DNA from: an uncultured Lentisphaerota bacterium
GTDB lineage: Bacteria > Verrucomicrobiota > Kiritimatiellia > CAIQIC01
Direction: 5' to 3'
DNA length: 38,679 bases
Assembly (NCBI GenBank): GCA_903889245.1
Contig: CAISWQ010000043.1
Coordinates: 1-38,679, forward strand
Shown one piece after another: positions 30,241 to 34,647 of this stretch; the stretch's first letter is position 1, and every line of letters begins with the position of its first letter. Both the position numbers and the translations under genes were made by a program. The notes below the pieces were generated by a model. It was not told the DNA's origin, made no database searches, and worked only from the letters and a program-made list of their open reading frames with translations.

Positions 30241-31341
30241 TCAACGGCGGGCTGAAGTGACAAGCCGCTTGAGCAAGATGGCGTAGCGGCGGGCGGAGAG
30301 GGGCAACTCCACAGTGCGGCTGGTCATGCTGGAAAGCAGCATCGCATTCGCCAGTTCCAGTGAGGCCAGTCCTGCGCTGGCGGGGGCGATGAGCGGCGCG
30401 CCTTTGCGGATGGCGTCCACGAAGTTTTGGACCACGACGTGATGCGTTGCCACCGGCGGCTCAAAAACAAATTCCGTCCGTGTGGTTTGTGGAACGGCGA
30501 ACATCTCCAGCGAGGTCGCGCGCAGGATCGCGGTCGGGACGTGGTTCGTGTCCACAATCAGCTTTTGCCCCTCGAGCACCAGGCGCGCGCGGTCGCAGGC
30601 GATCTCCAGCCGGTTGGTGCCGGGCGCCTCGCCGGTGGAGGCGATGAACACGCCGGTCGCGCCGCCGGGGAATTCAAGGTAGGCGCTGACCTCGTCCTCT
30701 ACCTCGATGCGATGATATTTTCCCAGATGACACCACGCGCGGACGCGCTCCGGCAGGCCAAGCAGCCACTGCAGGAGGTCGAGTTGGTGCGGTGCCTGGT
30801 TGAGCAGGATGCCACCGCCCTCGCCGGCCCACGTCGCGCGCCACTGGCCGGCGCGGTAATAGGCGTCAGTGCGGAACCAGTCGGTCAGCGTCCACTGCAT
30901 CCGCTGGATGTTCCCCAGCTTGCCGCTGGTGAGTAGTGCCTTGATCTTACGGAAGCGCGGATCCATCCGCATCTGGAACATGATCGCGAACACACTCTTC
31001 CGGTCGCGGTGCGCGGCGAGCATTTTTTCGGCGTCGGCCTTGTGGACGGCGAGGGGCTTATCCACCAGCACGTGCAGCCCGCGACGCAGCGCGGCGAGGG
31101 CGAGGGTGGTGTGCGCGTAATGCGGCGTCGCGATGATGACGGCCTCGGCTGCGCGCGCCTTGAGCAAGTCGCCCAAGTCGCTGAAGCCGCGGGCCTCCCG
31201 ATAGGCCGCGCGCGGTTCGGGCCGGCGGTTACAGACGGCGGCGAGTGTCGCGCCGGCGATTTGCCCATCGCGCAAGAGGTCGGCGTATTTCGTTCCCATC
31301 GTACCGAGACCGGCGACGGCAACGCGCAGCGGCGTGCTCAC
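30241..31341 (-). CDS. Cytoplasmic Gfo/Idh/MocA family oxidoreductase
   Basis: The frame is open far upstream to 31557, but the Rossmann motif begins right after a GTG at 31339-31341 that overlaps the lipoprotein gene's TGA (GTGA), with GGAG upstream; I use this start (366 aa). Motifs are RVAVAGLGTMGTKYADLLR (about 5-23), AEAVIIATPHYAHTTLA, LHVLVDKPLAVHKADAEKM (a VDKP version of the EKP motif), and the C-terminal WAGEGGGILLNQAPHQLDLLQWLLG, where the conserved His of the active site is visible. No signal peptide is present. It is the last gene of a translationally coupled Mla-like lipid-transport operon, an unusual context; a role in modifying a sugar headgroup is conceivable but unproven. Confidence 0.9.
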   Translation of the reverse strand: MSTPLRVAVAGLGTMGTKYADLLRDGQIAGATLAAVCNRRPEPRAAYREARGFSDLGDLLKARAAEAVIIATPHYAHTTLALAALRRGLHVLVDKPLAVHKADAEKMLAAHRDRKSVFAIMFQMRMDPRFRKIKALLTSGKLGNIQRMQWTLTDWFRTDAYYRAGQWRATWAGEGGGILLNQAPHQLDLLQWLLGLPERVRAWCHLGKYHRIEVEDEVSAYLEFPGGATGVFIASTGEAPGTNRLEIACDRARLVLEGQKLIVDTNHVPTAILRATSLEMFAVPQTTRTEFVFEPPVATHHVVVQNFVDAIRKGAPLIAPASAGLASLELANAMLLSSMTSRTVELPLSARRYAILLKRLVTSARR

Positions 31342-32276
31342 TTGGCGGGCTCCGCCGGCTGGGCCACCTGCTGCTTGAGCTCCTCGAAAAGCGCTACGAC
31401 GCGTGTGGCGAGAGCGGTCTGACCGGCGAGTTTTGCGGCGGTGAGCGCGGGCTCGATTTGCTTCAGTGCGCCCACGGTGTCGCCTTGCGCGGCGAGGCTG
31501 CGCCCGGCGCGGAACAGACGGTCGGCGGCGTCGGCGCTGCGGCCATCGCTCTGCCACGCCCCGCCGGCGCGGGCGAGCGCCTGGGCCATCTCGCGAAAAC
31601 GCCCGGCCTGCTGCCAGCCGACGGCCTCGCGGTCAAACGCGGCGGCGGCCTCGCCAAAGCTGCGCCCGCGCTGGGCACTGATGCCGACCAGATTTTCGAC
31701 CTCGGCATGGAGTGCGGCGTCTGACACGTCGCGGGCGAGCAGACGGATGGCGCTTAATTCCGTGGGTTGTAATTTTCCGGCGTCGCTTTGCAAGAGCGCC
31801 TTGATGATCAGCGCCTGCAGCTTGACGGCCGGGTCGTTGGCCGCTGCGGCCTGGTCGGCCAGCGCCAGCGCCACGGATGATTGGCCGAGGCGGCGCGCGG
31901 CCTTGGCGTCGAGCAGGAGTGCCTCGGTCGCGTCACGATTGAGGCGCGCGGCCTCGCTGCGCGACTCGGCGAGGAGACGGCGCGCCATGACGGGCTGGTC
32001 CACGAGCAGGAAACAGGCGGCGAGGTTATAAGCTTGGTCATAGATATCGGTGGCGGAATCGGCGGCGCGCGCATGTTCGAGCGCGCGGGCAAACTGCCGC
32101 GCGGCGGCCTCGATCTGGCCTCGTGCGAACGCCTTGTGGGCCGCGCTGGAGATCGTGTTAATCGCGGGGTCAACCGGCTTGGCCGTCTGCGGCGCGCTGG
32201 CACAGCCGCACAGCGTCATAACCAGTGCGCTGGCGGCTGCTAAGGTGAAAAGTGAAAGGTGCAAGGTGAAATTCAT
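31338..32276 (-). CDS. Lipoprotein with helical (TPR-like) repeats in Mla-like operon
   Basis: This 312-aa protein carries a lipoprotein signal with lipobox LCGC (the modified Cys at about residue 25), so it should be anchored to a membrane. The rest is almost entirely alpha-helical and Ala-rich, with paired-helix repeats such as SAAHKAFARGQIEAAARQFARALEHA, QAYNLAACFLLVDQPVMARRLLAESRSEA and RAGRSLAAQGDTVGALKQIEPALTAAK, consistent with TPR or Sel1-like folds. Its ATG overlaps the MCE gene's stop (ATGA), and its own stop overlaps the following oxidoreductase. Position in the operon suggests it is the accessory periplasmic or outer-membrane part of the transporter, replacing the MlaC/MlaA parts that are not seen. 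No MlaC resemblance is visible. Confidence 0.82.
   Translation of the reverse strand: MNFTLHLSLFTLAAASALVMTLCGCASAPQTAKPVDPAINTISSAAHKAFARGQIEAAARQFARALEHARAADSATDIYDQAYNLAACFLLVDQPVMARRLLAESRSEAARLNRDATEALLLDAKAARRLGQSSVALALADQAAAANDPAVKLQALIIKALLQSDAGKLQPTELSAIRLLARDVSDAALHAEVENLVGISAQRGRSFGEAAAAFDREAVGWQQAGRFREMAQALARAGGAWQSDGRSADAADRLFRAGRSLAAQGDTVGALKQIEPALTAAKLAGQTALATRVVALFEELKQQVAQPAEPAK
32242..32271. repeat. Imperfect AAGGTGAAA direct repeats at gene start
   Basis: AAGGTGAAA occurs at 32242-32250 and again at 32263-32271, with the related AGTGAAAGGTG between them. On the minus strand this reads as codons 2-12 of the lipoprotein (LHLSLFTL), so the hydrophobic signal peptide is partly built from a short tandem repeat. 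Confidence 0.55.
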
Positions 32277-33160
32277 TGGGTGGCTCCGTTGGGGACCGAC
32301 TGCGGCGGCACGCGCTCCGGCGCGGTCACCTGGTCCACATATTTACGCAGCAGCCAGTGCCGTTGTAGGCCCTCGATCAGTTTCTCCGCCTCGCGGAGCG
32401 CCGACTGCGTTTGCAGCATCACGCCGCCAGCGTCGCGCACCTCGCCGCCGGCGGTCTTGGCGATGGTGGGCAATTGCCCGGTGGTCTGCTTCACGTCGCC
32501 AAGAATCTTCTGCACCTGTGCGAGCACGTCGGCGAGCTGCTGCGCCATCTGCGGATCGCGCAGGATTTTGCCGACCGGCCCTTCACCCCGCTGAATCCCG
32601 GCGACCACCTCGTTCAGGCGGGCGACCAGTTGCAGCAGCGGGCCATTGGTGCTGCGCAGGTCGGCGGCGAGCTGGCGGTATTCATCAATGGTCTGCTGGA
32701 TTTTTTCCAGGCTGTGCTCGATCTCCTTGAGCATCTCGGTGTCATTCAGGCAGGCCAGCTCCGCGCCTTCCTTCGGCAGCGGCGTGGCCGCCCCCTTGCT
32801 GATCTCGATGAACGTTTCGCCGGCGATGGCAAACGCCTTTTTGACCAGCGCCTTTGAGTCGGTGCGCAGGAAACGGAAAAACTCGCCCTTGATCCGCGCC
32901 CGCCCCTGCATCGAGCCATCCTCGGCGGCGCTCATCTTCTCGATGGCGCCGATGGTCGTGCCGAGGCAGACGACGCGTGTACCCTCCTGTACACCGAGCG
33001 AGCCCTCCGGTGGGAAGCGCAGGGTCAGGCGGTATTCCGGGCGGAACCAGCCCTGTGCGCGGCCGGCGAAAATCACTCCCGCGACCAGCAACGCGGCGAT
33101 CAGCAGGACGAATGCCCCGGTGATCTCGTTGACGTAACGGAATTTGAAGGGCTTGCTCAT
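32273..33160 (-). CDS. mlaD: MCE-domain (MlaD-like) lipid-transport protein
   Basis: This 295-aa protein has one N-terminal membrane anchor (residues about 13-33, ITGAFVLLIAALLVAGVIFAG) followed by an MCE domain (about 42-130: YRLTLRFPPEGSLGVQEGTRVVCLGTTIGAIEKM, then IAGETFIEISKGAATPL). MCE proteins form hexameric rings with a lipid channel in the periplasm. Beyond it is a long amphipathic helix region (140-275: EIEHSLEKIQQTIDEYRQLAADLR), longer than E. coli MlaD and reminiscent of needle-forming MCE proteins. AGGAG precedes the ATG; the start is 3 bases past the ABC subunit's stop. The gene symbol is by homology of position and domain only. A palindrome pair lies 42-87 bp upstream, inside the preceding gene. 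Confidence 0.9.
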   Translation of the reverse strand: MSKPFKFRYVNEITGAFVLLIAALLVAGVIFAGRAQGWFRPEYRLTLRFPPEGSLGVQEGTRVVCLGTTIGAIEKMSAAEDGSMQGRARIKGEFFRFLRTDSKALVKKAFAIAGETFIEISKGAATPLPKEGAELACLNDTEMLKEIEHSLEKIQQTIDEYRQLAADLRSTNGPLLQLVARLNEVVAGIQRGEGPVGKILRDPQMAQQLADVLAQVQKILGDVKQTTGQLPTIAKTAGGEVRDAGGVMLQTQSALREAEKLIEGLQRHWLLRKYVDQVTAPERVPPQSVPNGATQ

Positions 33161-33163
33161 GCA

Positions 33164-33856
33164 TCACTCCTTGGCGGCGGCGAGCCGCGCACCTGCCAGT
33201 GTCCAAACCTTGGAAAAAAGGGCGCGGGAGTTTTCCAAACCTTGGAAGCTCTCCGCGATCCACAACGCCGCCGCGCCGTGCGCGCACGCCGCCTGTACCG
33301 CCGCCAGCAAGGGCGCACCCGCGGCGTTGGAGAGTTCGCGCAGCGGGTGCTCCAGCAGCAGCAGCGTGGGCGCGCCCAGCAGCGCCCGGATCCATGCGGC
33401 CCGGCGCAGTTCACCAGTACGCAACAGGGCCGGTCGCATACGCGGCAGATCCTCGAAACCAAACTGTTTGGCAAGCGCCAGAGCCTCGGCTTCGATCTCG
33501 GCCAATGGCCGCGTCGTGTGATGCCGCTGGGCGAGCGTGATGTTCTCGTCCACGTCGAGATTGCTGATCCAGCCGCGCTTCTCGAAAACACGGCCGATCC
33601 GGCCGCGGGCCGCGGCGGCCTCGTCGGGATGCCGCGCCTGCCAGTCCGTGCCCGCAAAATACACCCGGCCCTCGTCAGGCGCGACCAGGCCGGCGGCGAG
33701 ATCGGCCAGCGGAAAACCATCCGGCAACATGTCGGTCACGACCAGTTGGGCCTCGCCGGCGGCCACTTCCAACGTGATGGCGGTCAGGTCCTGCGCATAG
33801 GGTGGCTGTGCCGCTAGGCTGGCGTTCTCGAAACGCAGAATGGAGGTGGTGCTCAT
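33164..33856 (-). CDS. Degenerate MlaF-like ABC subunit (pseudo-ATPase)
   Basis: This 230-aa protein aligns along its length with MlaF-type ATPases: N-terminal LRFENASLAAQPPYAQDLTAITLEVAAGEAQLVV, then GLVAPDEGRVYFAG, GRVFEKRGWISNLDVDENITLAQRHHT, LLRTGELRRAAWIRALLGAPTLLLLEHPLRELS. Every catalytic element is altered. Walker A is TDMLPDGF (41-48) with no GxxGxGK. The Q-loop Gln is Glu92. The LSGG signature is LRTGE. Walker B reads LLLLEHP, so the Asp-Glu pair is Glu169-His170. The switch-His region is WIAES. The frame is intact and coupled on both sides (2 bases after the permease, 3 before MlaD), which argues against a pseudogene. Residues 204-219 are encoded by two palindromic repeats. It may act as a structural or regulatory subunit. 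Confidence 0.85.
   Translation of the reverse strand: MSTTSILRFENASLAAQPPYAQDLTAITLEVAAGEAQLVVTDMLPDGFPLADLAAGLVAPDEGRVYFAGTDWQARHPDEAAAARGRIGRVFEKRGWISNLDVDENITLAQRHHTTRPLAEIEAEALALAKQFGFEDLPRMRPALLRTGELRRAAWIRALLGAPTLLLLEHPLRELSNAAGAPLLAAVQAACAHGAAALWIAESFQGLENSRALFSKVWTLAGARLAAAKE
33202..33247. repeat. TTCCAAGGCTTGGAA palindrome array 7 (two copies, inside a coding end)
   Basis: TCCAAACCTTGGA (33202-33214, centre 33208) and TTCCAAACCTTGGAA (33233-33247, centre 33240) are exactly 32 bp apart. They sit in the 3' end of the MlaF-like gene, encoding FQGLENSRALFSKVWT (204-219), and 42-87 bp upstream of the MCE gene start. Whether they influence transcription within the operon is unknown. Confidence 0.9.
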
Positions 33857-33858
33857 GC

Positions 33859-34647
33859 TCAGAGATAGGTGGCGAGCGAAACGAGCGCCGAGATGATGAA
33901 CAGCGCGGCGGTGGACCGGACCACCGCGCGCGTGGCGGCCTGCGGCACCTCGGTACTGGCTGTGCCGACGCTCAAGCCCTCGGCGCAGCAGATCGCGCCG
34001 GTCATTGCGCCGCAGAGCAGGGTCTTGATGAGCAGGTTCAGCACGTCGGCTTGTTGCAACGCCCCGAAAATGCTCTCCACGAACAACAGCGGACGCCCAG
34101 GGTTCGCTCCGAACAACGTGCCGCTGATGTAACCGCTGCAGAAGGCGACCACGATGAAAATGATCGTCAGGCAGAACACCGAGAGCGCTGCGCCGACGAC
34201 ACGCGGCAGGATCAGGTAGGTGAATGGATCCAGCCCCTGCGCATCGAGCGCCCGTACCTCACCGGCCAGCTTCATGTTGCCCAGCTCGATCGCCATCGCC
34301 GTGCCGCTGCGCCCGATGATAATGAAGTTGACCAGCAAGGGGCCGAGCTCGCGGACGACGGTCATCACCAGTACCGGGCCGAGGTACTGCGTCTGCCCGA
34401 ACTTGGTCAGCCAGTATTGAAATTGCACGACGATGGAGAGGCCGACGAAGAAGGCGATCAGGGCGATGAAGCGGCTGGCTTCGACGCCGGTGAAGAGTAG
34501 TTGGCGGGCGAGGACGTTGCGTGTCGTGCGCGGCCAGTAGCGCGGCCAGGGCGTGATGCGCAGGACGCCCCAGAGCAGGGCGAAGAAATGCCGCCACATG
34601 CGGCCATTTTCGACCCAGCCCGCCCCGATGTTGCCGAGTACGCTCAT
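33859..34647 (-). CDS. mlaE: MlaE-like ABC transporter permease
   Basis: I start at ATG 34645-34647 (262 aa, the usual family length); frames upstream to 34872 overlap the Nudix gene, and an ATG at 34704 is the alternative. The protein has an N-terminal interfacial helix (RMWRHFFALLWGVLRIT) and five or so membrane segments: FIALIAFFVGLSIVVQFQYWL, YLGPVLVMTVVRELGPLLVNFIIIGRSGTAMAIELGNMK, FTYLILPRVVGAALSVFCLTIIFIVVAFCSGYISG, LIKTLLCGAMTGAICCAEG and AALFIISALVSLATYL. The block RELGPLLVNFIIIGRSGTAMAIELG is the permease signature that includes the ATPase-coupling helix, and it is well conserved. It transports phospholipid between membranes together with MlaD. The stop is 2 bases before the degenerate ATPase gene. 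Confidence 0.93.
   Translation of the reverse strand: MSVLGNIGAGWVENGRMWRHFFALLWGVLRITPWPRYWPRTTRNVLARQLLFTGVEASRFIALIAFFVGLSIVVQFQYWLTKFGQTQYLGPVLVMTVVRELGPLLVNFIIIGRSGTAMAIELGNMKLAGEVRALDAQGLDPFTYLILPRVVGAALSVFCLTIIFIVVAFCSGYISGTLFGANPGRPLLFVESIFGALQQADVLNLLIKTLLCGAMTGAICCAEGLSVGTASTEVPQAATRAVVRSTAALFIISALVSLATYL

Follow-up and report, generated by a model that had tools for sequence, protein, structure and literature searches.

A four-gene operon with a degenerate ABC subunit

The window (the whole stretch of DNA that was analysed, 38,679 nucleotides long) carries four tightly packed genes on its minus strand, and all features given below lie on that strand. The first gene, mlaE (33859-34647), encodes a permease of 262 residues that scores 185 bits against PF02405. 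It is followed by a gene (33164-33856) for an ABC-type protein of 230 residues with a MlaF/LolD-like NBD that has lost all catalytic motifs; we refer to it as the pseudo-ATPase. It scores 36.6 bits with the Pfam model ABC_tran (PF00005), for which the cut-off is 25 bits. The third gene (32273-33160) encodes a MlaD-like MCE protein of 295 residues, matched by PF02470 at 29.7 bits (MlaD cut-off 25.1 bits) and by TIGR00996 at 38.8 bits, and the fourth (31338-32276) a TPR lipoprotein of 312 residues with an invariant lipobox cysteine, Cys25. The mlaE stop and the pseudo-ATPase start are 2 bp apart and the end of the pseudo-ATPase gene lies 3 bp from the ATG of the MCE gene, the normal 2-3 base spacing to mlaE and mlaD that had been described in a sequence-only reading of this DNA. 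The MCE stop and the start of the lipoprotein gene share 4 bp (ATGA). The permease and the MCE protein place the operon in the MlaE/MCE transporter family.

The former Walker A of the pseudo-ATPase (residues 41-48, 33713-33736) is without GxxGxGK[ST], and the region reads VTDMLPDGFP. In the Q-loop or permease-facing segment (residues 84-117, 33506-33607; RGRIGRVFEKRGWISNLDVDENITLAQRHHTTRP) the glutamine is replaced by glutamate, giving F-E and not F-Q. LRTGE occupies the place of the LSGGQ signature (33410-33424). The former Walker B (33344-33364) reads LLLLEHP against hhhhDEP, so that the aspartate has become glutamate and the catalytic glutamate histidine. The switch histidine is also missing. 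The sequence-only reading had claimed the loss of Walker A, the Q-loop glutamine, the signature, the Walker B DE pair and the switch histidine, and it was right on each. A frameshift, a truncation or a wrong start hiding the motifs was ruled out, since homologues align over their full length. Chance or an annotation error was also rejected, because the same losses recur in homologues of the same genus (73-78% identity in a search of 56 relatives) and class-wide.

The MCE protein consists of one hydrophobic segment, the MCE domain and a helical C-terminal part. Its N-terminus, KPFKFRYVNEI (window 33100-33160), is nearly fixed in almost all relatives; the MCE protein encoded by the live operon described below does not have it. 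MlaE or the pseudo-ATPase may dock at this motif. The fourth gene had not been anticipated. Its product is predicted by AlphaFold2 to be a TPR-type helical solenoid (pLDDT 92.8) with 14 helices after the signal peptide. Fold matches in the PDB are to generic TPR proteins only, and the lipoprotein has no Pfam family.

Fold, constraint and spread of the pseudo-ATPase

Motifs were compared in an alignment of 52 members of the dead family with 31 intact MlaF proteins, all from one class, some genomes being represented twice under different locus ids. Walker A, the signature and the Walker B DE pair are missing in 52 of 52 dead-family members with no intermediates, and the Q-loop glutamine and the switch histidine are likewise lost throughout. 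LSGG[QM] is found in none of the 52. The Walker B aspartate is replaced by glutamate in 46 of the 52 proteins, while the catalytic glutamate has mostly become arginine or histidine (arginine in 23/52). The MlaF proteins of the same class retain the GK[S] of Walker A, the Q-loop glutamine, the SGG of the signature, the DE pair and the switch histidine in 31 of 31 cases.

AlphaFold2, supplied with 40 family sequences, returned a full NBD fold for the pseudo-ATPase with a pLDDT of 93.9 and a pTM of 0.91. The nearest folds are LolD (Z 26.3), FtsE (25.8) and MlaF (24.6), matched over 208-224 residues (VIA Z 23-26). LolD and FtsE share 22-24% identity with the pseudo-ATPase; unlike it, they are working ATPases, and they serve other permease types. 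PF00005 is matched at E ≤ 0.01 by 35 of 40 dead-family members. The score of the pseudo-ATPase under the MlaF equivalog rule (NCBIfam PRK11831) is 37.7 bits, below the required 441. The protein thus has the NBD fold and lies above the Pfam cut-off, but lacks the defining catalytic features. In a tree with 30 ABC domains of the genome, in which the placements of L168, L169 and L172 (all three with intact Walker A and Walker B) were disregarded, the dead family forms its own long branch outside MlaF; it may descend either from MlaF or from a LolD/FtsE-like ATPase.

Sequence conservation is unevenly distributed over this fold. In the dead family the Walker A stretch averages 1.27 bits per column (3.84 in MlaF) and is among the least conserved of the stretches compared. 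The Q-loop segment, at 3.20 bits per column (MlaF 3.56), outranks every other stretch compared in the dead family, and 7 of the 18 positions that the family still shares with MlaF fall within it (Fisher p = 0.004). Within it W96, N99, L100, E104 and L108 are invariant in the dead family. Constraint now lies on the permease-facing segment and no longer on the nucleotide pocket. It is very improbable that the pseudo-ATPase still uses ATP in some non-standard way: the retained NBD fold and the acidic Walker B glutamate of the 46 proteins would fit such activity, but no member has an intact P-loop, Q-loop glutamine, signature or switch histidine, and the Walker A stretch is poorly conserved.

Residues such as W72, W96, N99, W155 and W199 are invariant or nearly so in the dead family and do not occur in MlaF. 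These new residues suggest a gained function, and one reading is that the pseudo-ATPase senses a cytoplasmic signal, either a ligand or a protein, and gates MlaE mechanically with no turnover of ATP. The presence of FtsE among the nearest folds is in keeping with this, since FtsE works through mechanical coupling. Against it, neither a conserved extra domain nor a ligand pocket was identified in the pseudo-ATPase, and the operon showed no recognisable conserved gene for a cytoplasmic partner; we regard a signalling role of this kind as unlikely.

The best matches to the pseudo-ATPase in other genera of the class are at about 36-58% identity. A dead subunit scoring 114 bits or more was present in 38 of 289 genomes from the phylum, every one of them of the class to which the window belongs; the next protein reached 97 bits. 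A scan of a genome collection gave 41 loci with a dead subunit, nearly all in MAGs labelled Kiritimatiellota, Lentisphaerae or Verrucomicrobia and two in Auribacterota. mlaE lies upstream of the dead subunit at every one of the 41 loci whose contig reaches that far, an MCE gene lies downstream at 39 of the 41, and the TPR lipoprotein gene was recognised at 29. Among the relatives we found neither orthologous operons with a live subunit nor intermediates. On the available sampling, the sequences place the motif loss at least at the base of the window's class.

Within the genus, dN/dS for the pseudo-ATPase is 0.17-0.24 (Nei-Gojobori; 0.165 for the closest pair at a dS of 0.47), with single values to be taken as rough because dS is near 1 for some pairs. 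The partner genes give similar values by the same method, 0.11-0.28 for mlaE and 0.16-0.21 for the MCE gene. Two checks proposed with the sequence-only reading are answered by these data: no relative has intact motifs at the same locus, as recent decay would predict, and the ratios lie far below 1, indicating purifying selection. Recent decay is refuted by the all-dead relatives together with the low dN/dS. Loss of motifs in an intact frame can mark the early decay of a gene, but the same losses in 52 relatives spread over many families of the class, the dN/dS values and the confident fold make a decaying pseudogene of one lineage a scarcely credible explanation. The dead-subunit system is ancient, selectively maintained and class-wide; conservation on this scale had not been foreseen.

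One divergent locus lies outside the class. L138:1718-5001 (G301:C33) has the same order of MlaE, degenerate NBD, MCE and TPR protein. Its NBD is too divergent for a Pfam match and is without Walker A, Q-loop glutamine, signature or switch histidine. Close relatives of this subunit were absent from 236 genomes of its class. It may be either a much older sister of the family described here or the product of a second, independent loss. The sequence-only reading had not foreseen a second dead version in another class.

The partner permease and the second Mla operon

The permeases encoded next to dead subunits are themselves distinct. Dead-type MlaE scores 278-425 bits in 37 genomes (a 38th has the gene split over two contigs), and other MlaE proteins in the 289 genomes reach at most 154. 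A maximum-likelihood tree of 85 MlaE sequences puts the dead-associated proteins into a single clade (100/98) free of live members and all live-associated MlaE on the other side. The clade extends to a second class (G391/L154, with L071-L073 beside it). Across its 38 genomes dead-type mlaE adjoins the dead subunit, with the exception of genus g6 (G009 and G013). In this genus the operon is split: dead-type mlaE lies on another contig with no ATPase gene beside it, and the dead subunit and the MCE gene stay together (L134 and L135 in G009, L136 and L137 in G013), joined in G013 by the TPR gene.

The coupling-helix region of MlaE (residues 121-149, 34201-34287) is conserved within the dead clade and shows type-specific changes. 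In comparison with live MlaE, Glu129 has become glycine and Arg143 is lost. Type-specific sites are spread over the whole protein, without enrichment in the coupling helix (Fisher p = 1), and co-divergence of this helix was for that reason dropped as proof of exclusive pairing between MlaE and the pseudo-ATPase.

A further MlaE-MlaF-MCE operon, this one intact, lies elsewhere in the genome on contig C55; a search for a second, intact MlaF had been suggested, and this is where it was found. Nearly every genome that carries the dead system has two or three MlaE genes. G009, estimated to be complete, has a single MlaE, of the dead type. No canonical MlaF was found in G009, the best match having 37% identity as against 65% in its congener G013, a result that an assembly gap could also produce. 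The intact operon raises the possibility that an MlaF from elsewhere, or a free ATPase, powers dead-type MlaE in trans, with the pseudo-ATPase serving as an adaptor, helping assembly or forming half of a mixed dimer. The additional MlaE genes are compatible with such sharing, and there is precedent in mycobacterial MceG, which serves several MCE systems (PMC9882608). Against this, the dead subunit has kept its permease-facing segment and would be a rival for the same position on the permease. Nor would a mixed dimer offer any complete ATP site, since the dead subunit contributes neither Walker motifs of its own nor the signature that its partner requires. Dead-type MlaE has also lost two residues of the live coupling segment, Glu129 and Arg143, and G009 appears to have no canonical MlaF to share. 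We consider powering in trans doubtful, though it is the main alternative.

Of the other Mla components, MlaC was found in none of the 38 genomes that were searched, and MlaA is absent from 37 of them, this genome included; the lone MlaA homologue is at G032:C121:2432-3004 (207 bits). The absence of both proteins is a further feature that the sequence-only reading did not anticipate. At L001:2406-3626 the intact mlaE of the second operon is preceded by genes for a STAS-domain (MlaB-like) protein and a SpoIIE-type phosphatase, neither of which was recognised in the dead operon. These genes hint at phospho-control of the live system.

A possible ATP-independent lipid conduit

The central proposal of the sequence-only reading, a catalytically dead yet maintained subunit in an otherwise normal Mla-type operon, is strongly supported by the motifs, synteny, dN/dS, the MlaE tree and the fold. 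Passive flow and a second ATPase had been offered as ways in which such a system could work; the evidence leans to an ATP-free complex, while the intact operon elsewhere in the genome keeps the second option alive. We give roughly even odds (a probability of about 0.5) to the reading that MlaE, the pseudo-ATPase, the MCE protein and the TPR lipoprotein make up a Mla-type lipid transporter that runs without ATP. The system would be an ancient, class-wide one in which the pseudo-ATPase replaces the motor, the ABC permease serving as an ATP-independent intermembrane conduit beside an ATP-driven paralogue. An ATP-free complex is favoured by the retention of the permease-facing segment and the NBD fold, the separate MlaE clade and the lack of a canonical MlaF in G009.

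In this model the pseudo-ATPase would sit in the MlaF position under the MlaE dimer and dock on the MlaE coupling helices through its retained Q-loop segment. It would be unable to bind ATP or to form closed ATP sandwiches, and would hold MlaE in the nucleotide-free, periplasm-open (V-shaped) state; in the simplest reading it would be a structural or regulatory clamp on the permease. Lipid would pass from the inner membrane through the MlaE cavity and the MCE ring with its helical extension to an outer-membrane partner, the TPR lipoprotein. Movement would be driven by an affinity or concentration gradient with a net outward direction, and the cell's ATP-driven paralogue would act in the opposite direction or on other substrates. 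We infer complex formation, the absence of ATP binding, the locked conformation, the lipid substrate, the direction and the outer-membrane site of the lipoprotein. Published work on Mla is consistent with such a route: transfer of lipid from MlaD to MlaC is spontaneous without ATP hydrolysis, hydrolysis blocks outward flow, and nucleotide-free MlaE has a V-shaped cavity open to MlaD (PMC10212509). Together with the existence of ATPase-less Pqi and Let systems, these observations make an ATP-independent conduit the simplest explanation.

Three points count against the ATP-free reading. The intact MlaF present in nearly all of the same genomes might serve both permeases. The type-specific changes in MlaE are not concentrated in the coupling helix. 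An ATPase subunit that is no longer needed might also be expected to vanish altogether; its retention shows that the pseudo-ATPase does something.

Among known systems, MlaFEDB and MlaFED (type VIII ABC; E. coli, A. baumannii and, as MlaEFD, Veillonella) resemble the operon in having MlaE, an MCE protein and an ABC-fold subunit in the order mlaE-F-D. The minimal MlaEFD system of Veillonella is without MlaA or MlaC (PMC10665443), as is the genome studied here. The operon differs from these systems in that its MlaF equivalent has no ATP-hydrolysis motifs, its MlaE belongs to a separate clade and a TPR lipoprotein gene is added. PqiA and LetA are inner-membrane proteins of MCE systems that have no ATPase at all (PMC12436622), and Pqi is completed by an outer-membrane lipoprotein (PMC12436622, PMC10897342). 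In contrast to PqiABC and LetAB, the permease here is MlaE, an NBD-fold subunit is kept and the lipoprotein is a predicted TPR solenoid. Mycobacterial Mce1 and Mce4 combine MlaE-family permeases with MCE proteins, and their ATPase gene, MceG, may lie elsewhere (PMC9882608). The mycobacterial operon contains no ATPase gene, whereas the present one has retained a dead copy. In the heterodimeric ABC exporters TAP, CFTR and TM287/288 one degenerate site is under selection and the other stays active. Degenerate motifs are under selection in the present case too, but it is the only operon-encoded NBD that loses all of them. A description of a dead MlaF, or of a Mla system of this kind, was not found in the open-access literature, in agreement with what the sequence-only reading had stated.

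The direction of phospholipid transport by Mla (outward, inward or both) has long been disputed. If our reading is correct, a natural, selected ATPase-less Mla complex beside an intact one would constitute a natural experiment on the direction of transport, and ATP-free transport by a MlaE permease could then be tested directly. The system would also be one of the rare cases in which the sole NBD encoded in the operon of an ABC permease is a complete pseudoenzyme. In genome annotation, the labels 'MlaF' and 'ABC transporter ATP-binding protein' can be wrong in these genomes.
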